From Desulfatirhabdium butyrativorans DSM 18734 (GTDB lineage: Bacteria > Desulfobacterota > Desulfobacteria > Desulfobacterales > Desulfatirhabdiaceae), in contig NZ_AUCU01000014.1 of assembly GCF_000429925.1 (NCBI RefSeq), positions 62,001 through 126,000 of the forward strand: 64,000 nucleotides of DNA, written 5' to 3'. This document shows positions 2,501-14,188 of the stretch, piece after piece (within the stretch, counting starts at the first letter, position 1; each line of letters starts with the position of its first letter). The translations under genes and the position numbers were made by a program. The notes under the pieces were generated by a model. The model had not been told where the DNA came from and did no database searches. It saw only the letters and a list, made by a program, of their open reading frames with translations.

Positions 2501-4696
2501 TTATACGGACCATGATTCATCATACCCCCGCACATTCGGGGTGATCTCGAATTCCGCGCCCAATTCGGCATTGCTGTCAGGGCCGACCCAAACCTGGAAA
2601 CGGCCGGGTTCAAGAACCTCATTGCCATTGTCATCCAGATACGAAAGCTCATGCGGGCCGAGCGTGAACTGAACGGTTCTCGTTTCGCCTGCATCGAGAA
2701 AGACGCGCTCGAAGCCTTTGAGTTCCCGGACGGGACGTGCCACACGGGCAACAATATCCCGTACGTAGCATTGTGCGACTGTCGTTCCGGCACGGTTGCC
2801 GGTGTTGGTGATCTCAACGGTGACGGAAACCTCCGGTTTTAGATGAGACTGAGATATTTGCAGATTGGCAAATTCAAAGGTTGTGTACGAGAGCCCGAAG
2901 CCGAAAGGGAAGAGCGGGGAATCGAGCGAATCCACATAACGGGAATAACGGCGGCTGTGGGGAGGCATCGGCCTGCCGGTGGGACGATGGTTGTAGTAGA
3001 GCGGGATTTGCCCCGTAGATCGGGGGAAGGTGATCGGCAGCCGGCCGCTTGGATTTACATCCCCGAAAAGGACATCGGCCACCCCCAGTCCGCCAGTGAT
3101 ACCTGGATGCCAGGCGAACAGAACGGCGTCGGCCCAGTCCATCACGCGGGTGAGATTCAACGGGCGGCCGCCGAACACCACCGCCACGATGGGGATTTCC
3201 ATGCGACGGGCTGACTCGAGCAGTGCCTCCTGGCCTGCGGGCAGATCGATGGTGGCCGTGCAGTTGTCCTCGCCCGAGCGGCCCGCCGATTCGCCGATGG
3301 CAAGGATCAGCACATCGCTTGAACGCGCCAGCTTGACGGCGTCATCCGATAAGTCAACATGGTAAAGCAGGCTTTCCGTGCCCAGCCTGCCGGCGATTGC
3401 CTCTTTCAGCGTCGTCACCTCTTCCGGCTGCCCGTCTGGAGCCCAGCAGCCGAGCATTGCCTGGCGCTGGTCCGCAAGCGGCCCGCTCAGGCAGATGGTC
3501 ACGTTTTCGGAGGGCAAAGGCAGCACACCGTTGTTTTTCAGCAGAACCATGCTTTCGGCGGCCAGTCGACGCATGGTGGCAAGCGATTCGGGCAACAGGT
3601 GGACCGCCTGGGATGCGTTCGGATCGGCGTAAGGGTTTTCGAAGAGGCCGAGTGCGAACTTGATCCGGAGTATCCGGGTTACGGCATCGTTCAGGCGGGT
3701 TTCGGAGACCTTGCCGGCCCGGACCAGATCGGGCAGGTGGTTCAGGTAGACCATCACGCACATGTCCATATCCACGCCGGCGTTGCAGGCCAGCTCGGCG
3801 GCATGAGCACCGTCTGCCGCGATGCCATGGTTGACCAATTCGCCTACTGCACCCCAGTCGGAAACGATAAAACCGCCGAATTCCCATTGTTTCTTCAGTA
3901 CATCGTCGAGCAGATACCGATGGGCGGAAAGCGGAACGCCGCCGATATCGTGAAAGGCGCTCATGACGGTGGCGCACCCGGATTGTATCGCTGCCTTGAA
4001 GGGGGCCAGATAGATGTTGTGCAGGGTGTGGCGTGTGATTTCGGTGGTGTTGTAATCGCGCCCGCCTTCTGCCGCGCCGTAACCGACGAAGTGCTTGGCG
4101 CAGGCGACGATGCGATCGGCTGGAAATTGCTGGGGAATGGTGCCTTGATCGTTTCCCTGAAAACCGCTGACAGCCGCCGCAGCCAGTTTTCCCGCCAGAA
4201 AAGGATCTTCGCCAAATCCTTCGGCAACGCGTCCCCAGCGAGGGTCTCGGGCGATATCGAGCATGGGCGAGAACCCCCAATGGATACCGTCGGCGCGCGC
4301 TTCTTTGGCAGCGATCGTGTTGGCTGCCCGAATCAGCTCGGGTGACCAGGCAGCCGCCATCCCGAGGGGGATCGGGGCGACCGTGCGATACCCATGAATC
4401 ACATCTCGACCGAAGATCAGAGGGATACCCAGCCGGGATTCCGTCACGGCGATTTTCTGGATTTCGTTGACCGCCCTGGCAAAAACCCGTTCCTGGCGAT
4501 TGTTGCCTGCCGTAGAACTGTTGGCCATCAGACCGGAGCCGATCTCTCCGCGGCGCACCATGTCATACTGATCCGGGCCGAGGTTGAACCATTGATTCAG
4601 TTGTCCGGCTTTTTCCTCGATGGTCATGCGGCCCAACAGATCTTCGATGCGCTCTGCAACGGGGAGTGCCGGATTTTGATATGCGGGAATGGTCAT
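2501..4696 (-). CDS. bglX: Glycoside hydrolase family 3 beta-glucosidase
   Basis: A 731-residue GH3 enzyme hydrolysing terminal beta-D-glucosides. The N-terminal TIM-barrel region contains GIPLIFGRDVIHGYRT, DPRWGRVAEGFGEDP, KHFVGYGAAEGGRDY and FIVSDWGAV, whose Asp is the expected nucleophile. The second alpha/beta domain follows (VLLKNNGVLPL, ILAIGE..GRSGED), then a C-terminal fibronectin-III-like domain (PFGFGLSYTTFE, VSVTVEITNTGNRAGTTV). Length matches BglX-type enzymes, but unlike E. coli BglX no signal peptide is visible, so it is probably cytoplasmic. The start has GAAGGAG nine bases upstream. It stands alone, convergent with the sigma-54 regulator; a heptamer repeat lies in its leader. 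Confidence 0.93.
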   Translation of the reverse strand: MTIPAYQNPALPVAERIEDLLGRMTIEEKAGQLNQWFNLGPDQYDMVRRGEIGSGLMANSSTAGNNRQERVFARAVNEIQKIAVTESRLGIPLIFGRDVIHGYRTVAPIPLGMAAAWSPELIRAANTIAAKEARADGIHWGFSPMLDIARDPRWGRVAEGFGEDPFLAGKLAAAAVSGFQGNDQGTIPQQFPADRIVACAKHFVGYGAAEGGRDYNTTEITRHTLHNIYLAPFKAAIQSGCATVMSAFHDIGGVPLSAHRYLLDDVLKKQWEFGGFIVSDWGAVGELVNHGIAADGAHAAELACNAGVDMDMCVMVYLNHLPDLVRAGKVSETRLNDAVTRILRIKFALGLFENPYADPNASQAVHLLPESLATMRRLAAESMVLLKNNGVLPLPSENVTICLSGPLADQRQAMLGCWAPDGQPEEVTTLKEAIAGRLGTESLLYHVDLSDDAVKLARSSDVLILAIGESAGRSGEDNCTATIDLPAGQEALLESARRMEIPIVAVVFGGRPLNLTRVMDWADAVLFAWHPGITGGLGVADVLFGDVNPSGRLPITFPRSTGQIPLYYNHRPTGRPMPPHSRRYSRYVDSLDSPLFPFGFGLSYTTFEFANLQISQSHLKPEVSVTVEITNTGNRAGTTVAQCYVRDIVARVARPVRELKGFERVFLDAGETRTVQFTLGPHELSYLDDNGNEVLEPGRFQVWVGPDSNAELGAEFEITPNVRGYDESWSV

Positions 4697-5056: not shown

Positions 5057-5422
5057 TTAGAAGAACGTTTCTTTGCACGCGATTCCGGCATCTCGCAGGC
5101 GCTGATAGTCCATTTTGAGACGCTCGTTGGCGATGCTTCGAATAACCTCTTCCTCCGCAGCGGTTTCATGGATGTCCCCGAATGCATACACCTTGGTCAC
5201 GGTGCGGTTCTTGCCGCCAGAACCAGTCAATGCAAAATCGGCGATCAGCAGGTACCAGTTCTTTCTCGCTTTCTGTTCGCCCGTCTCATCCGGAAGCATA
5301 TCCTGCTTCACGATCTCTTTGCGTAACTTGGCCTCGAATTGACCTTTATTTCGGGAAATGGCGAGTGCGATCAGATCCTCCAGCCGTTCCATATACCCTT
5401 TTTTGCCTTCTTCAGTTGTCAC
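5057..5422 (-). CDS. Hypothetical protein
   Basis: A 121-residue protein with no recognised domain. It starts at GTG 5422 because AAGGAGA lies seven bases upstream; an ATG at 5545 would add residues of poorer quality and has no ribosome binding site. The sequence is charged and mostly helical near the N-terminus (GYMERLEDLIALAISRNKGQ), has KNWYLLIADFALTGSGGKNRTV in the middle and ends RLKMDYQRLRDAGIACKETFF. No signal peptide or membrane segment. It stands alone between repeat-rich regions, so context gives no clue to its job. Confidence 0.5.
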   Translation of the reverse strand: MTTEEGKKGYMERLEDLIALAISRNKGQFEAKLRKEIVKQDMLPDETGEQKARKNWYLLIADFALTGSGGKNRTVTKVYAFGDIHETAAEEEVIRSIANERLKMDYQRLRDAGIACKETFF

Positions 5423-5919
5423 GGATAGGTCTCCTTGGTTGGATAAACGGTATTTTGCCGAAAAAACTGCACGAACCATCGGGATAAGAGCGCAAAGCTG
5501 CAATCCGTTTGCAAGCGGAGATTGGATTGCATGCTTTCGCTTCATCTGCGTGGAGCAACCATTTGGTCTTCCGTAAGGACCATATGATTGGATATTTTCT
5601 TTTCAATGCCAGACAGCGGTTAGATTGTCAATAAATGTTCATGGCGGTGTCGCCACTCCAGGGCAAGATCATCCAACCTGGTAATCTTGAGAAGACTTTG
5701 GATCGTTATTCCGGCAAATGCGGAATTCAGTTCCATGAGAGCGGGACTTGGACAGGCTTTGGACCCCTCCTGCCATAGGCGGGATTTCGCCGGGGTGACG
5801 GTCCATACCGCCCACTGCGGACTGTAAATCGCCGACTGCCTACAGCCCCCCATTATCAAGATAATCCCCCATGCAACCGGGATTTCACCCCGATGAATGA
5901 AAGTTGCAGAAGTAAGATA
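5423..5919. other. Gene-free, repeat-derived stretch
   Basis: No supported coding sequence; the open frame on the minus strand across 5620-6045 runs through repeats and the MITE end. Recognisable pieces are a CACTGCC-like degenerate heptamer patch around 5806-5845 and a composite repeat at 5862-5912 (CCCATGCAACCGGGATTTCA then CCCGATGAATGAAAGT) that recurs at 37774-37820. Confidence 0.55.
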
Positions 5920-6235: not shown

Positions 6236-6270
6236 TTCTGACTTCTGACTTCTGACTTCTGACTCCTGAT
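6236..6270. repeat. TTCTGAC heptamer array
   Basis: Four TTCTGAC units and one TCCTGAT. The preceding bases (AAAAAAAGGAACCATCCGCT-type) are shared with the array at about 37826-37875, so the array is part of a larger dispersed repeat. Confidence 0.8.
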
Positions 6271-6443
6271 AAACTCAGCCAAAAGTCGCATTCGTGCAAC
6301 TCATCGGCGGCGATTGGGTTCCAGATATGCGACAAATCGATTCCGTGTTTCGATGGAGCCCCCCTGCTTCATTGTCAGGTAACCGCCTGATCATCCATCA
6401 AAAATCCGTTTATCCCGATCAATAAATCACTTGTCCGACATCT

Positions 6444-6459
6444 TGGCATGGAAAATGCT
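6444..6459 (+). promoter_or_regulatory. Sigma-54 promoter of the NifX/MinD operon
   Basis: TGGCATGGAAAATGCT has the invariant -24 GG and -12 GC at the correct spacing and agrees with TGGCAC-N5-TTGCT at most positions. It lies 60 bases before the first gene of the cluster. An upstream dyad, GTCGCAT at 6285-6291 and ATGCGAC at 6327-6333, centres 42 bp apart, is a possible activator site. Confidence 0.65.
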
Positions 6460-6519
6460 TTCTCAATCGCCTCGGCAGGCAGGAAGGATTCAATGCGGAA
6501 TCATCAGGAGTATGATGTC

Positions 6520-7410
6520 ATGAAGGCGGCATTTTCGGTATGGAACAATCGCATTGCGCCGGTTTTCGATGTGGCGAGGAAAGTGCTGCTCGTTGACATG
6601 GAAAACCGTTCCGCGGTGAATTGTTGCGAGGCATGCCTTCTTTGCGACACGGATGAAGGCAAGGCGAAGCGGCTTTGCGAACTCGATGTGGATGTGTTGA
6701 TTTGCGGCGCGGTTTCCCGGTATCTGGAAACCACCCTGGTGAATGCCGGGATCCAGGTCATCGGTTTTGTGGCCGGTGACGCGCTGGAAATCATCGATTC
6801 CTGGCTGTGCGGGGATTTTCAGCGAAAGGATTATGCCATGCCGGGCTGTTGTTGCCGGGGCATTGTATCGAATGAATTGGGATTGATCCCAAAGGAGGTC
6901 ATCATGAACGGCAGAGGCGCTGGTCGATGCAGACAGCAGGGAATGGGGCAGGGAATGGGCCAGGGCAAGGGCCAGGGAATGGGAAGGCGAATGGGGCAAG
7001 GTAATCCCCAGGGCCGACAGAACGCCGAAACGGAGGCAGCCATGGGAAAAATCGCCGTGAGTTGTGAAGAACCGAGTCTGGATGCCATGATCGATCCGAG
7101 ATTCGGCCGGGCAGCAGGGTATCTGATCGTTGATCCCGATACCATGCAATTCGAATATCTCGACAATGGCGCCTCACAGGCCATGGCGCAGGGCGCCGGC
7201 ATCCAGGCGGCCGAAACCGTATTTCGTTCCGGCGCCAAGACGGTGCTGACCGGTTATGTGGGACCCAAGGCGTTCCAGGCATTGAGCGCTGCGGGCATTC
7301 AGGTGATTCAGAACGTCGAAAACATGAGCGTTCGGCAGGCAATCGAAGGATTCAAAGCCGGTCGCTTTCAGCCTGCGACGGAACCCAACCGGATGGGACA
7401 CGGCCGATGA
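6520..7410 (+). CDS. Double-domain NifX/NifB-like (dinitrogenase Fe-Mo cofactor biosynthesis family) protein
   Basis: A 296-residue protein with two copies of the NifX/NafY/orange-protein fold, which holds Fe-Mo- or Mo-Cu-type clusters in related proteins. Copy one begins MKAAFSVWNNRIAPVFDVAR and ends with a cysteine-rich PGCCCRG stretch. A low-complexity linker (GQGMGQGKGQGMGRRMGQG) joins it to copy two (GKIAVSCEEPSLDAMIDPRFGRA). The chosen ATG matches the usual family N-terminus and has CAGGAG nine bases upstream; an in-frame ATG at 6493 with AGGAAGGA is the alternative. Its TGA overlaps the next ATG (ATGA). It heads an operon of two MinD-ferredoxins, another NifX-like protein and a NifU-like scaffold, pointing to metal-cluster handling. 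Confidence 0.85.
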   Translation: MKAAFSVWNNRIAPVFDVARKVLLVDMENRSAVNCCEACLLCDTDEGKAKRLCELDVDVLICGAVSRYLETTLVNAGIQVIGFVAGDALEIIDSWLCGDFQRKDYAMPGCCCRGIVSNELGLIPKEVIMNGRGAGRCRQQGMGQGMGQGKGQGMGRRMGQGNPQGRQNAETEAAMGKIAVSCEEPSLDAMIDPRFGRAAGYLIVDPDTMQFEYLDNGASQAMAQGAGIQAAETVFRSGAKTVLTGYVGPKAFQALSAAGIQVIQNVENMSVRQAIEGFKAGRFQPATEPNRMGHGR

Positions 7411-8309
7411 AGATTGCCATTGCAAGCGGAAAAGGCGGAACGGGAAAAACGACGGTCTGCGCTTCCCTCGTTCATGTGTGGCCCCGGGCCGTTGCCGCAG
7501 TGGACCTCGATGTCGAAGAGCCGAATCTGCATCTGTTTCTGCATCCCCACATCGAAAGCACCGAAGAAGTGGGAATGGATATCCCGATTGTGGACGAAAC
7601 CAAATGCAGCTATTGCCGCAAGTGCGCCGAAATCTGCCAGTTCAAGGCCATATCGGTGCTGGGCAGCGTCGTGCTGACTTATCCGGAAATGTGCCATGGG
7701 TGCGGCGGGTGCATGGCTGTCTGCCCGGAGAAGGTCATCTCTACCGGAAATCGGCCTCTCGGTGAAATTCTTCAGGGAAAGGCCGGCAATGCGGCCTTCT
7801 GGATGGGAAGGCTCCGGGTAGGCGAGGCGATGAGCCCGCCGCTGATGCGCATGGTCAAAAAGCGCCTGGCGCAAGCCCTTGGCGAAGGATCGCCGGGCGC
7901 CGAAAGCCCTGTGGATGTGCTGATCGATGCGCCGCCCGGCGTATCCTGCCCGGCCATGAATGCCGTGATGGATACGGATGCCATCGTGCTGGTCACCGAG
8001 CCGACGCCATTTGGTCTCTATGATCTGAAACTGGCCTACCAGGCCTTTGGCCAGTTGAATGTCCCGATGGGTGTGGTGATCAACCGATCGGATATCGGCA
8101 ATTCGGATACCATTGCCTTCTGCAGGGAAGTCGGTCTCGATATCTGGGCCGAGATTCCATTCGAGCGAAACATCGCCGAGGCATACGCTTCGGGCAGAAT
8201 CATTGCGGAAACCGATCCGGCGCATTTTGCCGTATTTCACAGCCTGGCGGAAAAGCTCCAAAGCGTTGGCGAACGGTTGACGGCATCCAGAGAGGTGACC
8301 CATGCGTGA
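7407..8309 (+). CDS. MinD/ParA-family P-loop ATPase with two [4Fe-4S] ferredoxin motifs (first copy)
   Basis: 300 residues. The deviant Walker A GKGGTGKTTV is at residues 9-18, with the ParA/MinD DLDVEEPN element following. A ferredoxin insert carries two CxxCxxCxxxC motifs: CSYCRKCAEIC near residue 66 and CHGCGGCMAVC near 96. The ATPase core resumes with LIDAPPGVSCP and VTEPTPFGLYDL. Such proteins occur in orange-protein clusters of Desulfovibrio and are related to Mrp/NBP35 cluster-assembly ATPases. The start overlaps the upstream gene by four bases and the end overlaps the next gene by eight, so the genes are tightly coupled. Likely role: nucleotide-dependent assembly or delivery of a metal cluster; the client is unknown. 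Confidence 0.92.
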   Translation: MKIAIASGKGGTGKTTVCASLVHVWPRAVAAVDLDVEEPNLHLFLHPHIESTEEVGMDIPIVDETKCSYCRKCAEICQFKAISVLGSVVLTYPEMCHGCGGCMAVCPEKVISTGNRPLGEILQGKAGNAAFWMGRLRVGEAMSPPLMRMVKKRLAQALGEGSPGAESPVDVLIDAPPGVSCPAMNAVMDTDAIVLVTEPTPFGLYDLKLAYQAFGQLNVPMGVVINRSDIGNSDTIAFCREVGLDIWAEIPFERNIAEAYASGRIIAETDPAHFAVFHSLAEKLQSVGERLTASREVTHA

Positions 8310-9183
8310 GATCATCGTCATCAGTGGTAAAGGCGGCACCGGGAAAACGTCCCTCACGGCGGCATTCGCGCATCTGGCGTCTCCTGTCATGATCTGTGAT
8401 CTCGATGTGGATGCCCCGGATTTGCATCTGATTCTGCACCCGAATCAAACCCAGTCGCATGTGTTCATGGGCGGTCGTACGGCGAAAATCGATCCGGAAA
8501 AATGCACGTCCTGCGGGCTGTGCCAGGAGATGTGCCGCTTTGATGCCATCGAGGCTGCAGAGGGCCAACACCGGGTCAACCCGCTGCGGTGTGAAGGCTG
8601 CAGTGTCTGTGTACATTTCTGCCCGGAAGGCGCCATCGACTTTCCGGAAAAGCAATGCGGCCACTGGTACGCATCCCGGACCCGCTTTGGGCCGATGATG
8701 CATGCCCAGCTTTTTGCATCCGAGGAAAACTCCGGAAAACTGGTGGCGCTGCTTCGGACCCAGGCCAAGGAAAACGCCAAGAAGATCGGCATGGAGCTGA
8801 TCCTCTCCGATGGCCCTCCGGGTATCGGATGCCCGGTGATCAGCTCGCTTTCGGGCGTCTCCTATGCCGTTCTGGTGACCGAACCGACCCCTTCGGGTCG
8901 GCACGATCTGGAACGGGTTGCCTCCCTGTGCACCCACTTTGGTGTTCCGGCAGGGGTCATCGTCAACAAGAGCGACTTGAATCCAACAGAATGCGACGGT
9001 ATTGAAATCTACTGCAGGGATCACCATATTGATGTGATCGGTGAACTGCCCTTCGATCCGGTCATTACCCGAGCGATGGTTCAGGCCAGGGCCGTCACGG
9101 AATTCGATTCCGGCGCTTTTTCGAACCGCATCCGGGACCTGTGGACTCGGATTTGCGAAGTGGCGATTTACAACAAGAACTGA
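8302..9183 (+). CDS. MinD/ParA-family P-loop ATPase with two [4Fe-4S] ferredoxin motifs (second copy)
   Basis: 293 residues, a paralogue of the preceding gene with the same architecture: Walker A GKGGTGKTSL, DLDVDAPDLHLILHP, ferredoxin motifs CTSCGLCQEMC and CEGCSVCVHFC, then SDGPPGIGCPV and VTEPTPSGRHDL. The pair probably forms a heterodimer, as in other tandem MinD-ferredoxin loci; that is inference. Its ATG overlaps the first copy's end by eight bases. Confidence 0.92.
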   Translation: MREIIVISGKGGTGKTSLTAAFAHLASPVMICDLDVDAPDLHLILHPNQTQSHVFMGGRTAKIDPEKCTSCGLCQEMCRFDAIEAAEGQHRVNPLRCEGCSVCVHFCPEGAIDFPEKQCGHWYASRTRFGPMMHAQLFASEENSGKLVALLRTQAKENAKKIGMELILSDGPPGIGCPVISSLSGVSYAVLVTEPTPSGRHDLERVASLCTHFGVPAGVIVNKSDLNPTECDGIEIYCRDHHIDVIGELPFDPVITRAMVQARAVTEFDSGAFSNRIRDLWTRICEVAIYNKN

Positions 9184-9222
9184 TGTACCCGTATCATTCA
9201 ACATCTGGAAAGGAGTAGGATT

Positions 9223-9600
9223 GTGGAAACCATTGTTGCCATTCCCTCGACAGCACCCGGCGGGCTCGATGCGCCGCTGGGCGCCCATTTCGGTCATTGC
9301 GACCTCTACACCCTGGTTGCGCTGGAAAACGATCAGATCAAGAACGTCAACGTGATTCCCAATGTCCCCCATGTTCAGGGCGGATGCCTGGCCCCGGTGC
9401 AGTATCTGGCGCAGCAGGGCACCAAAAAGCTCGTTGCCGGCGGCATGGGATTGAGGCCGTTGATGGGCTTTAACCAGGTTGGTATTGAAGTGTATTTCGG
9501 CGGTGAATGCCAGACCGTCGGAGAAGCCGTCCAGGCATTGCTGGACGGAAAACTTCCCCAATTTTCCCAAGAATATACCTGCGGAGGCGGAGCACATTGA
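9223..9600 (+). CDS. NifX-like / orange-protein-type cluster-binding protein
   Basis: 125 residues forming one dinitrogenase iron-molybdenum cofactor-type domain: ETIVAIPSTAPGGLDAPLGA, HFGHCDLYTLV, GCLAPVQYLAQQGTKKLVAG, GMGLRPLMGFNQVGIEVYFG, and a C-terminal YTCGGGAH. The start is GTG at 9223 with AAAGGAG upstream. The single-domain size and place beside two MinD-ferredoxins resemble ORP of Desulfovibrio, which binds a Mo-Cu sulfide cluster; whether this one does is not shown. The TGA overlaps the possible TTG start of the next gene. Confidence 0.85.
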   Translation: METIVAIPSTAPGGLDAPLGAHFGHCDLYTLVALENDQIKNVNVIPNVPHVQGGCLAPVQYLAQQGTKKLVAGGMGLRPLMGFNQVGIEVYFGGECQTVGEAVQALLDGKLPQFSQEYTCGGGAH

Positions 9601-10043
9601 AGTCGCTGGATACCATGGAACCGGCATTGTCGGAACACCATCCGGATGAAATCCCCGCGAATCTGGACAAGCGGTTCTTTGCTCATGCGGAACATCCCAG
9701 AAATCTGGGCAGGATAGATGATGCCGACGGAAAGGCAACGGGAAAAGGGGTATGCGGGGATTCGATGGATATCTACCTGTGCATTCGTGATCAGCGGATC
9801 CATCGGGTGGGGCAAGTTCCGCATGGTTGCCTCTATACGGTGGCCAGCGCCAGCGCGCTCAGCGAGCTGTGTCTGGGAAAGCAGCTGGAGGAAGCACTGC
9901 GCATCATGCCGGAGGATGTATCTGGCGAGTTGGGCGGTCTTCCGGACGATCACATGCATTGCGCGCGCCTGGCGGTCAACACGCTTGGGGAAGCCATCGA
10001 GGATTACTACCGGAAAGCCTGGTCGAAAGCTTGCGGCCGGTGA
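9597..10043 (+). CDS. NifU/IscU-type iron-sulfur scaffold-like protein
   Basis: About 148 residues from a TTG that overlaps the previous stop (TTGA) with GGAGG about ten bases upstream; ATG 9615 is the alternative. It resembles the NifU N-terminal/IscU domain. The three scaffold cysteines are recognisable in GVCGDSMDIYL, GCLYTVASASALSELCLG and HMHCARLAVNTL, with the conserved Asp after the first, and LGGLPDDHMHC matches the IscU LPPxKxHC region. The first part (FFAHAEHPRNLGRIDDADG) matches the family start (a slot for 'HPRNVG'). The C-terminal NifU domain is absent. It probably assembles or passes Fe-S clusters for the MinD-ferredoxins. Confidence 0.85.
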   Translation: MKSLDTMEPALSEHHPDEIPANLDKRFFAHAEHPRNLGRIDDADGKATGKGVCGDSMDIYLCIRDQRIHRVGQVPHGCLYTVASASALSELCLGKQLEEALRIMPEDVSGELGGLPDDHMHCARLAVNTLGEAIEDYYRKAWSKACGR

Positions 10044-10182
10044 TACCGGTTTTCCGTCGCAAATCCGAATCGCAGTCCGGGTGATGAAGCCCGGACTTCG
10101 ATTCGGATATCCCGTGGCGGCCCATCTTCCAACCCTGAGCATTGCATCTATGTTCAATCCGATGCCGAGGATATGAGAAACC

Positions 10183-10434
10183 ATGCCCATCTATGAAATT
10201 CATTGCGATACGTGTGGTAAAACCGCCGAAGTGCTGGTGGTCAAACAATCCGAAAGCCTGAATTGTCCATCCTGTGGCAGCAACCGGGTGCAGCGGGTGA
10301 TGTCCGCGACCAGTTCGTTGACGGGCCGTGCGCCAAAGAGCTTCCCGGGGCCGAAGGATACGGGCTGCTGCGGTCATTCTCCTGCAGAAGCCCACTGCGC
10401 CGGCCCTGGCTCCTGCTGCGGCCGGAACGGATGA
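10183..10434 (+). CDS. FmdB-family zinc-ribbon protein
   Basis: 83 residues starting MPIYEIHCDTCGK with a second pair NCPSCGS, the paired CxxC zinc ribbon of the FmdB/CxxC_CxxC_SSSS family. The tail is richer in cysteine than usual (GCCGHS, HCAGPGSCCG), so additional metal binding is possible. It lies 139 bases after the NifU-like gene, in the same direction, probably in the same operon. Function in this family is poorly defined. Confidence 0.85.
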   Translation: MPIYEIHCDTCGKTAEVLVVKQSESLNCPSCGSNRVQRVMSATSSLTGRAPKSFPGPKDTGCCGHSPAEAHCAGPGSCCGRNG

Positions 10435-10464
10435 TGCCGCCAGAAACCATATAAAGGAAAAAGC

Positions 10465-10857
10465 ATGGCAAAGCGAGTTCTGTTCGTTTCCGGCCGACCG
10501 GAAAAGTGGCAGGAAATCGGAAACGGCTTCCACAACTATCCGGAAGTGAACCTGTACAAGGCTGCATCGCTTGCGCAGACGGAAAGTGTGATGGCATCCA
10601 ACCGTTTCGGAATAGGGGATCTGGTTGTTCTGGATGAGTTGATCGATGGTCGCCCGGCCATCGATGCAGCCAAGGACATCATCGTGAAGAACGCCTTCGT
10701 GTATCTTGCCATAACCAGCGATATGCCTCATGACCAGTTTCATGAACTGGCCGAAGGGCTGGGCATTCTTGCCCAGATTCCTTCCAGACCGACGGAGGCG
10801 GATTTCGAAGCCCTGATGCGTCAATGGGATGCGGTATCCTCCGTTTCGGGCCGGTGA
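10465..10857 (+). CDS. Conserved hypothetical protein, receiver-like fold, in the NifX/MinD cluster
   Basis: 130 residues. The start MAKRVLFVSGRPEKWQEIG has AAAGGAAAAAGC just upstream. The alternation of beta strands (RVLFVSG, GDLVVLDELIDG, FVYLAITSD) and helices, and DLVVLDE at the usual position of the phospho-acceptor region, suggest a CheY-like or pseudo-receiver fold, but there is no clear acidic pocket or conserved lysine. It is the last gene of the same-direction cluster, 30 bases after fmdB-like. No function can be assigned. Confidence 0.7.
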   Translation: MAKRVLFVSGRPEKWQEIGNGFHNYPEVNLYKAASLAQTESVMASNRFGIGDLVVLDELIDGRPAIDAAKDIIVKNAFVYLAITSDMPHDQFHELAEGLGILAQIPSRPTEADFEALMRQWDAVSSVSGR

Positions 10858-10861
10858 ACGA

Positions 10862-11653
10862 TCATTTCAGAAATTCCGCAGATGTGCAAAGCTGCATGCC
10901 GATGGACTTCATGTCCGACAGAAAGCTTTCGGCGATGTGGGCAAATCCGGAGACACTGGAAGAGCAGTCCGTGATCAGGTGAATTTTCCGGATATATCGG
11001 GTCGCGAAGTTGGCTACGATGTCCCGCCCCGTATTCGCGACACAGTGGCTGAGCGCTTCGCCGGTAAAACCGATCACGTCGTACGATTGCAGGTCTTTCA
11101 GAAAGGCCATGTTCAGTTCCGTATGCGGATCGGCCGGGTCCGGGACGTCCGCCTGGACCACCGAGTAATGTTCGGTGTAGATATTGCTTCCTTTGGCCAA
11201 CCACTGGACGACCGCCGGGCGCTCTTCCCATCTGAGAATGGCCTGCCGTACCGGGTCTACCACCACCTGCCCCCATGTTCCCATCAGACAATGCTCCGGC
11301 CAGATACACAACTGATAACGCCCGTTCTGCTCCAGTTGCTCGGTGTAATCCAGCGCACGGGTGTTCAAGGCAGTGTCGAAGGGCATCCATCGTCCTTCAC
11401 GCACATCTTCTTTGGTGATGATGGTGAAAGGCGAGGGGTGATTGCCTGCCGGATCGCGCCAAAAAATGGGATGGGCGACATGGAGCCGATGATGGCTGTC
11501 CATCGTGACCTTGATGGTGTTCAGTTTGTGTCGCACCCGGTCGATCATGGCGCCCAGTCGAACGGCATCCTGGTCGGCGCCCGGCACAAACAGCGAACCT
11601 TTCGGGTTGCAGAAATCGTTTTGCGGATCGACGATCAACAGACAGGTTTTCAT
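10862..11653 (-). CDS. Isochorismatase/nicotinamidase-like cysteine hydrolase
   Basis: 263 residues beginning MKTCLLIVDPQNDFCNPKGS, the cysteine hydrolase family signature with catalytic Asp in VDPQNDF; the nucleophile Cys lies in GEALSHCVANTG preceded by the cis-peptide region. HHxxHVAHPIFW and the WPEHC motif resemble nicotinamidases (nicotinamide to nicotinate), but the protein is longer than PncA (about 210 residues), so the substrate is uncertain. The longer frame to 11965 is rejected because its extra N-terminus is not family-like. It converges with the NifX cluster, four bases from its end. Confidence 0.85.
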   Translation of the reverse strand: MKTCLLIVDPQNDFCNPKGSLFVPGADQDAVRLGAMIDRVRHKLNTIKVTMDSHHRLHVAHPIFWRDPAGNHPSPFTIITKEDVREGRWMPFDTALNTRALDYTEQLEQNGRYQLCIWPEHCLMGTWGQVVVDPVRQAILRWEERPAVVQWLAKGSNIYTEHYSVVQADVPDPADPHTELNMAFLKDLQSYDVIGFTGEALSHCVANTGRDIVANFATRYIRKIHLITDCSSSVSGFAHIAESFLSDMKSIGMQLCTSAEFLK

Positions 11654-11989
11654 GTTTTCTTCAGGCTCCGACTCGTGATTCCAAATTACCGACTTCCGAA
11701 GCAATGACGCATCGGGTGTTTTGCAATTGGCTCTTGCAATACGCGTTTTCAAAAGATAAAAGAAGCGCCCGTCATGCCCCGAGTGTTTCGTGCCCGAGCG
11801 CGGCCCATGTTCGGGGCGGTGCGTCGTCCGCGCTCCGGCCTGGATCGGGCAAAAAACGAAGTTTCCGTTCAGGCAGTTTGCGGGAGCTGCAACACGTTGT
11901 CGAAACCCGGCCGGAAGGGGCGATGGCACGATAGAGCACATACCGGCGACTTCATCAGAAGTCAATACCCTCTTGAACTACTGGAAAAC

Positions 11990-14188
11990 ATGATGAGCGG
12001 CAGACAACCAGAGACATTCACGGATCCGAAATCCTGCGTGGATTTCATTCTGTCGAAAGTCGGCAAACACATTGTTCTGGGCCTTCCGCTGGGGTTGGGA
12101 AAACCCAATCACCTGGCCAATGCCTTTTATCGGAAAGCCCTGCAGGATCGAAGCATTCGGCTGCGTATCGTCACGGCCATCACCCCGGAAATTCCGCGAT
12201 GGTCATCGGATATGGAGCGCCGGCTGCTCCAGCCCATTTTTCAGCGGATTTTCGGCGGGTATCCCGAACTCGAGTACGCCCTTGCCGTGCGGAAGAATGC
12301 CCTTCCGGAGAACATCGATGTGACGGAATTCTTTTTCCGGCCGGGCGCATACATGGCAAACCCCCGGGCGCAACAGAACTACATCAGCACCAATTACACC
12401 CATGCCGTTCGGGATTTGATGGCCAACGGCCTCAATGTGGCCGCAAGCCTGATCTCAAAGGAAATCGTCGATGGCACTCCCCGATATTCCTTCAGTTGCA
12501 ACCCGGAGGTTTCGCTCGACCTGAAGGGCGCAATGGAGCAGGCGAGGCGGGAAGGCCGCGGCATGGCCGTCATTGCCGAGGTCAACCGGAATCTGCCCTT
12601 CATGTATGGCGGCGCCCGGATCGATGCCGACGCTTTCGACGCCATTCTGGACAATCCGGAGCTGGATTTTCCCTTGTACGCACCACCCAAGGAGCCGGTC
12701 AACACCCAGGACTACCGGATCGGCATGCTGGTGAGCGCGCTCGTACGGGATGGCGGAACACTGCAGATCGGCATCGGTTCCCTGGGCCATGCCATTGCAT
12801 ACGGACTGATTCTGCGAAACGAGCACAACTCGGTTTACCGAAACTTTCTGGCCGAGACGGGCATGCTGCAGGCGTTTGGCGCCCAGATCGGGGCATCCGG
12901 AGGTGTTACCCCTTTCGAAACGGGCTTGTACGGTTGCACGGAAATGCTCGTCGATGCCTATGTGTATCTGATGAAAATGGGCGTAATCAAACGGATGGTA
13001 TACGACCATGCCGGATTGCAGAAGCTGCTCAACGATGGGAAAATTGCGGAGCGAATCGGGCCGGATATGCTGCATACGCTGGTTGCTGAGGGCCTGATTT
13101 CGGAGCACCTGACGCAAGAGGATGCCGGCTTTCTCAGCCGGTTCGGCATCCTGCGGCCCGAATGGAATTGGGAAGGGGGCATGCTGAGTGATGGCACCAG
13201 CCGGATTGCCGCGGACCTTCACGATCCGGAGAGCCGCAAGACCATTGAAACCCATTGCCTGGGCGATCGGCTGCAAAACGGCATTCTGATCCATGGCGGT
13301 TTTTTCCTGGGACCAGAGGATTTCTACGAAGCGCTTCGCCGAATGCCCGAGGCCGAGCGCCGCAAGATCGACATGACCGCCGTGACCTACACGAACCAGC
13401 TCTATGGAAACGAGGAGATCAAAAGCCTGCAGCGCCTGCACAGCCGGTTTGTCAACACCGGAATCCTGGTGACGCTTGGCGGGGCCGTGGTTTCGGATGG
13501 ACTTGCGGACGGCCGGGTGATCAGCGGGGTCGGTGGGCAATACAACTTCGTATCGCAGGCCCACGCCCTGCCGGGAGCCAGAAGCATTCTCATGATTCGA
13601 GCTACCCGCCAGAGTGATGGAAAAACGAGCTCAAACGTGGTGTGGAACTACGGTCATGCCACCATTCCCCGGCATCTGCGGGATATCGTCGTCACCGAAT
13701 ACGGCATTGCCGATCTGCGCAGCCGGTGCGACAGGGAAGTGGCCATCGCCCTGATCGAAATCGCGGATTCCCGGTTTCAGGAGGGGTTGCTGCGGCAGGC
13801 CAAAGATGCCGGAAAAATTCCGAAAGACTACCGGATTCCGGACCGGTTTCGGCAGAATGTGCCCGAACGGCTCGAAAGGGAAATGGCCCCTTTCCGCCGG
13901 GAAAAATTCTTCCCGGCGTTTCCCTTCGGCTCCGAGCTGACGGAAGAGGAATTCACCCTTGCCCGGTCGCTCAAAATGGTCAAGGAGGCGGCCCAGGCCA
14001 GGGGGCTTCGATCCCTCGACTGGCAGAGCGCATGGAAGAGCCTTTCCATTCCCGCGGCAGCCAGACCTTATCTGGAACGCATGGAACTCGACCGGCCCCG
14101 AACCCTTCGGGAACATGCCCTGCAGCGGCTGCTGGTCTACGCCCTGCGGGTTTCCGGGGCGATTTCGCCGCATATCGAAAACGAATAG
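11990..14188 (+). CDS. Acetyl-CoA hydrolase/CoA transferase family protein
   Basis: 732 residues. The C-terminal half has the acetyl-CoA hydrolase/transferase signature: GGAVVSDGLADGRVISGVGGQ followed by FVSQAHALPGARSILMIRA, SSNVVWNYGHATIPRHLRDIVVTEYGIADL. The N-terminal half carries the first CoA-transferase domain (HIVLGLPLGLGKPNHLANA; GTLQIGIGSLGHAI). The enzyme would move CoA between short-chain acids or hydrolyse acyl-CoA in the cytoplasm. It is longer than the about 430-residue Cat1/acetate CoA-transferases and matches the long subtype that has an extra C-terminal region (residues about 600-732). The start is one of two adjacent ATGs; the ribosome binding site is weak. Upstream sequence contains degenerate repeat. 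Confidence 0.88.
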   Translation: MMSGRQPETFTDPKSCVDFILSKVGKHIVLGLPLGLGKPNHLANAFYRKALQDRSIRLRIVTAITPEIPRWSSDMERRLLQPIFQRIFGGYPELEYALAVRKNALPENIDVTEFFFRPGAYMANPRAQQNYISTNYTHAVRDLMANGLNVAASLISKEIVDGTPRYSFSCNPEVSLDLKGAMEQARREGRGMAVIAEVNRNLPFMYGGARIDADAFDAILDNPELDFPLYAPPKEPVNTQDYRIGMLVSALVRDGGTLQIGIGSLGHAIAYGLILRNEHNSVYRNFLAETGMLQAFGAQIGASGGVTPFETGLYGCTEMLVDAYVYLMKMGVIKRMVYDHAGLQKLLNDGKIAERIGPDMLHTLVAEGLISEHLTQEDAGFLSRFGILRPEWNWEGGMLSDGTSRIAADLHDPESRKTIETHCLGDRLQNGILIHGGFFLGPEDFYEALRRMPEAERRKIDMTAVTYTNQLYGNEEIKSLQRLHSRFVNTGILVTLGGAVVSDGLADGRVISGVGGQYNFVSQAHALPGARSILMIRATRQSDGKTSSNVVWNYGHATIPRHLRDIVVTEYGIADLRSRCDREVAIALIEIADSRFQEGLLRQAKDAGKIPKDYRIPDRFRQNVPERLEREMAPFRREKFFPAFPFGSELTEEEFTLARSLKMVKEAAQARGLRSLDWQSAWKSLSIPAAARPYLERMELDRPRTLREHALQRLLVYALRVSGAISPHIENE

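Follow-up and report, generated by a model that had tools for sequence, protein, structure and literature searches.

An orange-protein operon of Desulfatirhabdium butyrativorans with a putative sigma-54 control circuit and linked scaffold, zinc-ribbon and receiver-like genes

The 4.48-Mb genome of Desulfatirhabdium butyrativorans DSM 18734 contains a cluster of seven genes in a 64,000-nt stretch of contig NZ_AUCU01000014.1, hereafter the window, whose positions serve as coordinates throughout. An earlier reading made from the DNA letters without database searches (the sequence-only reading) had described seven co-directional genes at 6444-10857 as an orange-protein-like cluster. We found all seven open reading frames (ORFs), g1 to g7, on the + strand at 6520-10857, closely packed and with short overlaps of 4 bp (g1/g2), 8 bp (g2/g3) and about 4 bp (g4/g5, using the TTG start of g5). 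Searches of Pfam and NCBIfam assigned two Nitro_FeMo-Co domains to g1 and one to g4, a CbiA/ParA domain (MinD/ParA-type ATPase) with Fer4 repeats to both g2 and g3, a NifU_N domain to g5 and an FmdB zinc ribbon to g6; g7 had no family match in either database. Because g1 holds an orange protein (ORP) domain and is accompanied by two MinD-ferredoxin ATPases and a NifX protein, the cluster is almost certainly an ORP operon of an anaerobic bacterium, an already known kind of operon. The suspected ORP relationship was thus correct, but "like" was too weak a word, g1 having a real ORP domain and g2, g3 and g4 being other core parts. The gene block likewise stood, while the unit as a whole reaches further upstream, to a putative activator binding site at 6284 and an activator gene at 734-2128. 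The operon appears to have a switch protein, binding site and promoter of its own, and its additional genes, for an Fe-S scaffold, a zinc ribbon and a degenerate receiver protein, recur next to ORP operons in many relatives.

The first gene, g1 (6520-7410, 296 amino acids), encodes a Nitro_FeMo-Co domain that passes the Pfam cut-off (N1), a cationic Gly/Met/Gln linker and an ORP domain of the Orp8 type. The C-terminal domain matches the Desulfovibrio gigas orange protein structure 2wfb over nearly the full domain length (E = 2e-38; next structure, 2e-11), from which g1 differs in that a second Nitro_FeMo-Co domain and the linker precede its ORP domain in one fusion protein. We placed the start at the ATG at 6520, which has an AGGAG upstream and lies downstream of the promoter, because the listed ATG at 6448 falls within the -24/-12 element. 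Two NifX-type proteins had been predicted; the family assignment holds, but three such domains are present and g1 is not merely NifX-like. These three, all in the ORP cluster, are the only Nitro_FeMo-Co domains in the whole genome. For comparison, we searched 147 genomes of the class, took the regions around relatives of g3 and g7, and mapped 134 cluster loci in them with profiles built from the window proteins; a scan of genome contigs with g3 gave six loci, four of them usable. The g1-type fusion is also present in loci L053 and L055. Loci L068, L099, L063 and others encode extra cluster Nitro_FeMo-Co proteins with cationic (GMGGGRGMG)n tails, some ending in a coiled-coil-like segment.

The g1 linker, which sits between the two Nitro_FeMo-Co domains, raises the question of whether the operon serves mainly in metal-sulfide storage or buffering, with g1 resembling IssA/IssX, its cationic Gly-rich segment wrapping anionic thioferrate or thiomolybdate, and the scaffold and MinD-ferredoxins drawing on the store. 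The linker is Gly-rich and strongly positive, as are the tails of N1 proteins that stand alone and of other cluster Nitro_FeMo-Co proteins; IssA uses such a tail to bind thioferrate and can reconstitute ferredoxin in vitro, and Gly-rich tails have also been noted in uncharacterised relatives termed IssX (PMC5524996). A Nitro_FeMo-Co domain and a glycine-rich cationic segment are common to both. However, the IssA tail is C-terminal and aromatic-rich whereas the g1 segment is internal and has no aromatic residues, the likeness is one of low complexity only, and the ORP domain of g1 has ORP rather than the IssA relative MTH1175 as its nearest match. We consider storage as the main role rather unlikely.

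Downstream of g1, g2 (7407-8309, 300 amino acids) encodes a MinD-type ATPase with an inserted 2x[4Fe-4S] ferredoxin domain and g3 (8302-9183, 293 amino acids) a second MinD-type ATPase with a 2x[4Fe-4S] domain. Each has eight Cys in a CxxCxxC...C pattern, the double ferredoxin motif of the Orp3/Orp4 type, in agreement with the two MinD-ferredoxin ATPases originally proposed. The next gene, g4 (9223-9600, 125 amino acids, GTG start), encodes a single-domain Nitro_FeMo-Co/NifX protein of the Orp5 type. Since the Nitro_FeMo-Co and NifU_N families are common to nif systems, the NifX-, NifU- and NifH-like genes could be taken for a nitrogenase-type FeMo-co biosynthesis island. Their neighbours, however, are the ORP set, and outside the cluster the genome contains no NifX, NafY or NifB bearing a Nitro_FeMo-Co domain; we rejected this reading, to which we give a negligible probability.

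Relatives of g3, the ORP-type MinD, were found in 134 of the 147 genomes and form a nearly universal core, whose gene order is conserved among the loci. ORP is present at 117 of the 134 loci, NifX at 112, the receiver-like gene (Rec7) at 70, FmdB at 42, the N1 domain at 35 and a NifU-type scaffold at 33. In 1310 kb of flanking DNA, as against 470 kb of clusters, we found 5 NifU, 6 FmdB and 1 Rec7 matches, an enrichment of about 18- to 20-fold over the flanks for the NifU and FmdB linkage. The genes for NifU and FmdB are therefore conserved in their linkage to the MinD pair, and the absence of such synteny, which the sequence-only reading had named as a refutation, was not what we observed. This bears on a second alternative, in which the operon works in cell division or spatial organisation, with the MinD pair positioning a complex at the pole or septum, the receiver-like protein serving as a localisation adaptor, and NifU and FmdB being incidental. 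A part in division has indeed been suggested for ORP genes of Desulfovibrio vulgaris, and MrpORP localises to a pole (PMC6345978, PMC3897727). The enrichment of NifU and FmdB and their recurrence in several NifU lineages make an incidental presence unlikely, though, and division genes are not recurrent in the neighbourhoods of ORP clusters. We regard a device of this kind as improbable.

The predicted NifU/IscU-like scaffold is g5 (9597-10043), for which a TTG overlapping the g4 stop is the probable start (9507 in the ORF list). It has the NifU_N domain found in IscU/NifU scaffolds such as Archaeoglobus fulgidus 4eb5 and retains the three cluster Cys and the Asp (CGD, GC and HC). Unlike those scaffolds, it belongs to an ORP-linked clade of its own and has no adjoining desulfurase. 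Its twelve top relatives in the 147 genomes (at least 119 bits; next, 91 bits) each lie near an ORP MinD gene on the same contig and form a single clade (SH-aLRT, an approximate likelihood ratio test, 98). Further NifU lineages likewise adjoin ORP clusters, and therefore the NifU-ORP link arose more than once. At L065, a 69-amino-acid NifU gene remnant (9725-9934) lies between NifX and the receiver-like gene and is apparently decaying.

A self-contained metallocluster assembly unit, as first suggested, found no support. The ten ORFs that we scanned within the cluster and next to it include no cysteine desulfurase, and the genome has neither MrpORP (Orp9, an NBP35 domain fused to a Di-Nase domain) nor a fourth Nitro_FeMo-Co domain; a plain Mrp/NBP35 gene is located on another contig. 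MrpORP identity was also rejected for the cluster proteins themselves, g1 to g4 scoring far under the NF041136 cut-off. In vitro, the Orp3-Orp4-Orp8 complex of Desulfovibrio receives Fe-S clusters from MrpORP (PMC6345978), and by analogy g5 would be the nearest candidate here for this supply step. Transfer of clusters from the scaffold to the MinD-ferredoxins is a tentative proposal, to which we assign slightly less than an even chance. NifU is present in just about one quarter of the clusters, and NifU and Mrp-like genes show no mutual exclusion but a tendency to co-occur (P = 0.07; this and the other Fisher tests on cluster co-occurrence ignore kinship). Both points count against the proposal and leave replacement of MrpORP by the scaffold a conjecture; given the lack of mutual exclusion in clusters, we discarded strict replacement of Mrp/MrpORP.

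We then considered how the operon might be controlled. A sigma-54 -24/-12 element, TGGCATGGAAAATGCT, lies at 6444-6459 on the + strand, and the identical 16-mer occurs upstream of the L115 cluster. By itself such a site is weak evidence for the good promoter that had been claimed: the 64 kb contain six sigma-54 sites with at most one mismatch, against 2.5 expected. For sigma-70 promoters, we found one weak match against 2.6 expected. The sigma-54 site becomes convincing only with its conservation, a palindrome upstream of it and an orthologous activator. A strong sigma-54 site stands ahead of 45% of 127 clusters; the figure is 7% for the reverse strand and 1.7% for shuffles. The N1 domain tracks these sites (31/35 versus 26/99; P = 1e-10, uncorrected for kinship).

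The putative upstream activator site (UAS), AGTCGCATTCGTGCAACT, is an 18-bp palindrome at 6284-6301 (+ strand) that starts 160 bp ahead of the -24 element, and is the sole exact match to AGTYGCAN4TGCRACT in the window. Most ORP clusters headed by a sigma-54 site have a similar palindrome upstream, between -92 and -160. Directly upstream of the UAS, at 6236-6268, lies a (TTCTGAC)n heptamer array; the genome has 22 exact copies of a 24-bp stretch of it, spread over about a dozen sites, against none for the control.

The activator gene (734-2128, + strand), which the sequence-only reading had overlooked, encodes a 464-amino-acid protein with PAS, sigma-54 AAA+ and Fis helix-turn-helix domains (Pfam). 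It is located 4.3 kb upstream of the operon, from which it is separated by two opposite-strand ORFs, 2501-4696, which we take to be a beta-glucosidase-like sequence, and 5057-5545. PAS/sigma-54 activators flank 29 ORP clusters in related positions. The window protein is 71% identical to the activator adjoining the same-family ORP cluster L061 and, among the 34 activators compared from its own genome, is the best match for 25 of the 29 ORP-linked activators. A Cx8Cx3C pattern in the PAS domain (Cys56-x8-Cys65-x3-Cys69) is conserved in 29/29 ORP-linked activators and found in only four of the 34 own-genome ones. This protein and the activators beside ORP clusters elsewhere are likely to be orthologues, and we consider it very probable, as judged from these comparisons, that the window protein controls the operon together with sigma-54.

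A palindrome score of at least 11/14 was reached by 20/24 activator-linked promoters (the window counted in), 22/33 other promoters and 3.6% of shuffles. Some points weigh against this assignment. The UAS pattern came from palindromes of relatives, part of the data scored, which makes it partly post hoc. The runner-up, paralogue L200, comes close in score against the more distant of the ORP-linked activators, and for four of the 29 it is the better match. Within the MinD lineage of the window, a sigma-54 site was detected in only two of 26 clusters, the window and L055, and the window promoter is thus unusual among its closest MinD relatives.

The remaining two genes had been called an FmdB zinc ribbon and an unknown receiver-like protein, and both descriptions proved apt. 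The first, g6 (10183-10434, 83 amino acids), matches the FmdB zinc ribbon and has a conserved Cys-rich tail (CCGx..CAGPGSCCG). The second, g7 (10465-10857, 130 amino acids), was modelled with AlphaFold2 from 70 relatives as a confident (beta-alpha)5 fold (pLDDT, the model confidence score, 90), and a Foldseek search with this model returned 257 PDB matches at E <= 1e-3, with receiver domains on top. Relatives of g7 occur in 87/147 genomes. The fold is that of CheY-like receivers, but the acidic pair after strand 1 is not present in the g7 family alignment, Pro stands at the usual Lys position, and the family has its own invariant HxxxEGxG motif (H93, E97, G98 and G100); Asp57 is found in 75% of relatives. 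Because the acidic pair is missing and HxxxEGxG is invariant, phosphorylation is unlikely and docking likelier, so that g7 is most likely a non-phosphorylated docking or adaptor subunit. At L062 (9581-10387), the NifU scaffold and receiver-like protein share a single ORF in which relatives of g5 and g7 are naturally fused, with a TGA inside the wider g7-search match; the fusion supports a physical link between g5 and g7. Between g5 and g6, a hairpin at 10063-10108 has near-perfect 19-nt arms (95% complementary) and no T run. It is single copy in the genome, which rules out a genome-wide repetitive extragenic palindrome (REP), and it is possibly an mRNA processing or stability element.

Gene trees give conflicting groupings for some ORP clusters. 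In the MinB tree, the window falls in a 26-row clade (support, 99) with the gene order ORP-MinD-MinD-NifX. In the ORP+NifX tree, L053, L062, L068, L105 and L040 group with the window lineage, and their MinD genes belong to the other lineage; the nearest relatives of g2/g3 in the window likewise differ from those of g1/g4/g5. On these trees, MinD pairs and ORP/NifX modules have been exchanged between two lineages.

Gene identities, cluster conservation, the receiver fold, the conserved promoter, the UAS and the activator form the sequence-based part of the following picture. The three-Cys PAS activator would respond to a cue, plausibly metal, sulfide or redox state, bind the palindrome and drive sigma-54 RNA polymerase at the promoter. 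The products would include ORP fused to a second cofactor-binding domain, the two MinD-type ferredoxin ATPases and the NifX-type carrier, which would form the ORP complex and hold Fe-S clusters and also, as the homology to characterised ORP suggests, an anionic metal-sulfide cluster. In the D. vulgaris type of complex, the cluster on Orp8 is a non-covalent S2MoS2CuS2MoS2 one. Assembly or supply of Fe-S clusters for both ferredoxin-ATPases is most likely the task of the NifU/IscU-type scaffold, the degenerate receiver would dock, and the FmdB protein is most likely a metal-binding accessory. The operon would thus function in the maturation or handling of anionic metal-sulfide clusters. Here the particular cue, the metal and the scaffold-to-ferredoxin transfer are what we infer. 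Taking all steps together, we hold this explanation to be probable.

The D. vulgaris orp operons (DVU2103-2109; Orp3, 4, 5, 8 and 9) use sigma-54, integration host factor (IHF) and the single-component activator DVU2106, which binds palindromes at -88/-131 (PMC3897727). The window resembles them in its ORP domain, two double-ferredoxin MinD ATPases and single-domain NifX, and in having a predicted sigma-54 promoter, a nearby single-component sigma-54 activator and a palindromic upstream site. It differs in forming one co-directional operon instead of two divergent ones, in having no MrpORP, in the fusion of ORP to an extra domain, in the added NifU scaffold, FmdB and degenerate receiver genes, and in the two opposite-strand ORFs that set off its activator.

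To our knowledge, the ORP complex, known for years, has no agreed function. Repeated, independent gene linkage ties it to dedicated Fe-S scaffolds, and a receiver-fold protein family and a Cys-rich FmdB subfamily are now defined as its regular companions. We propose a concrete, testable regulator, binding site and promoter, and the invariant Cys of the activator sensor domain suggest a direct path to the signal of the system. A broader view would make the ORP clusters of the class a single regulon whose division of labour has gone unrecognised: the Cys-PAS activator would sense metal-sulfide status, anionic thiometallates would be held by N1 proteins whose cationic tails are IssA-like, IscU-type scaffolds, recruited separately several times, would convert these thiometallates into clusters for the MinD-ferredoxin motors, the degenerate receiver would dock, and the MinD pair would be exchangeable between two ORP lineages. 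We offer this view as speculation that is unlikely to hold.

Other recurrent neighbours of ORP loci (for example, L112, L044, L170 and L174) include histidine kinases (28 loci), DUF5320 (22), CGGC (18), a metallo-beta-lactamase fold (17) and DUF134 (9). In the window, the operon is followed by a convergent ORF at 10862-11965 (- strand) with weak isochorismatase/nicotinamidase likeness and by a long ORF at 11774-14188 (+ strand) whose C-terminal domain is of the acetyl-CoA hydrolase/transferase type and which is only weakly similar to butyryl-CoA:acetate CoA-transferases.

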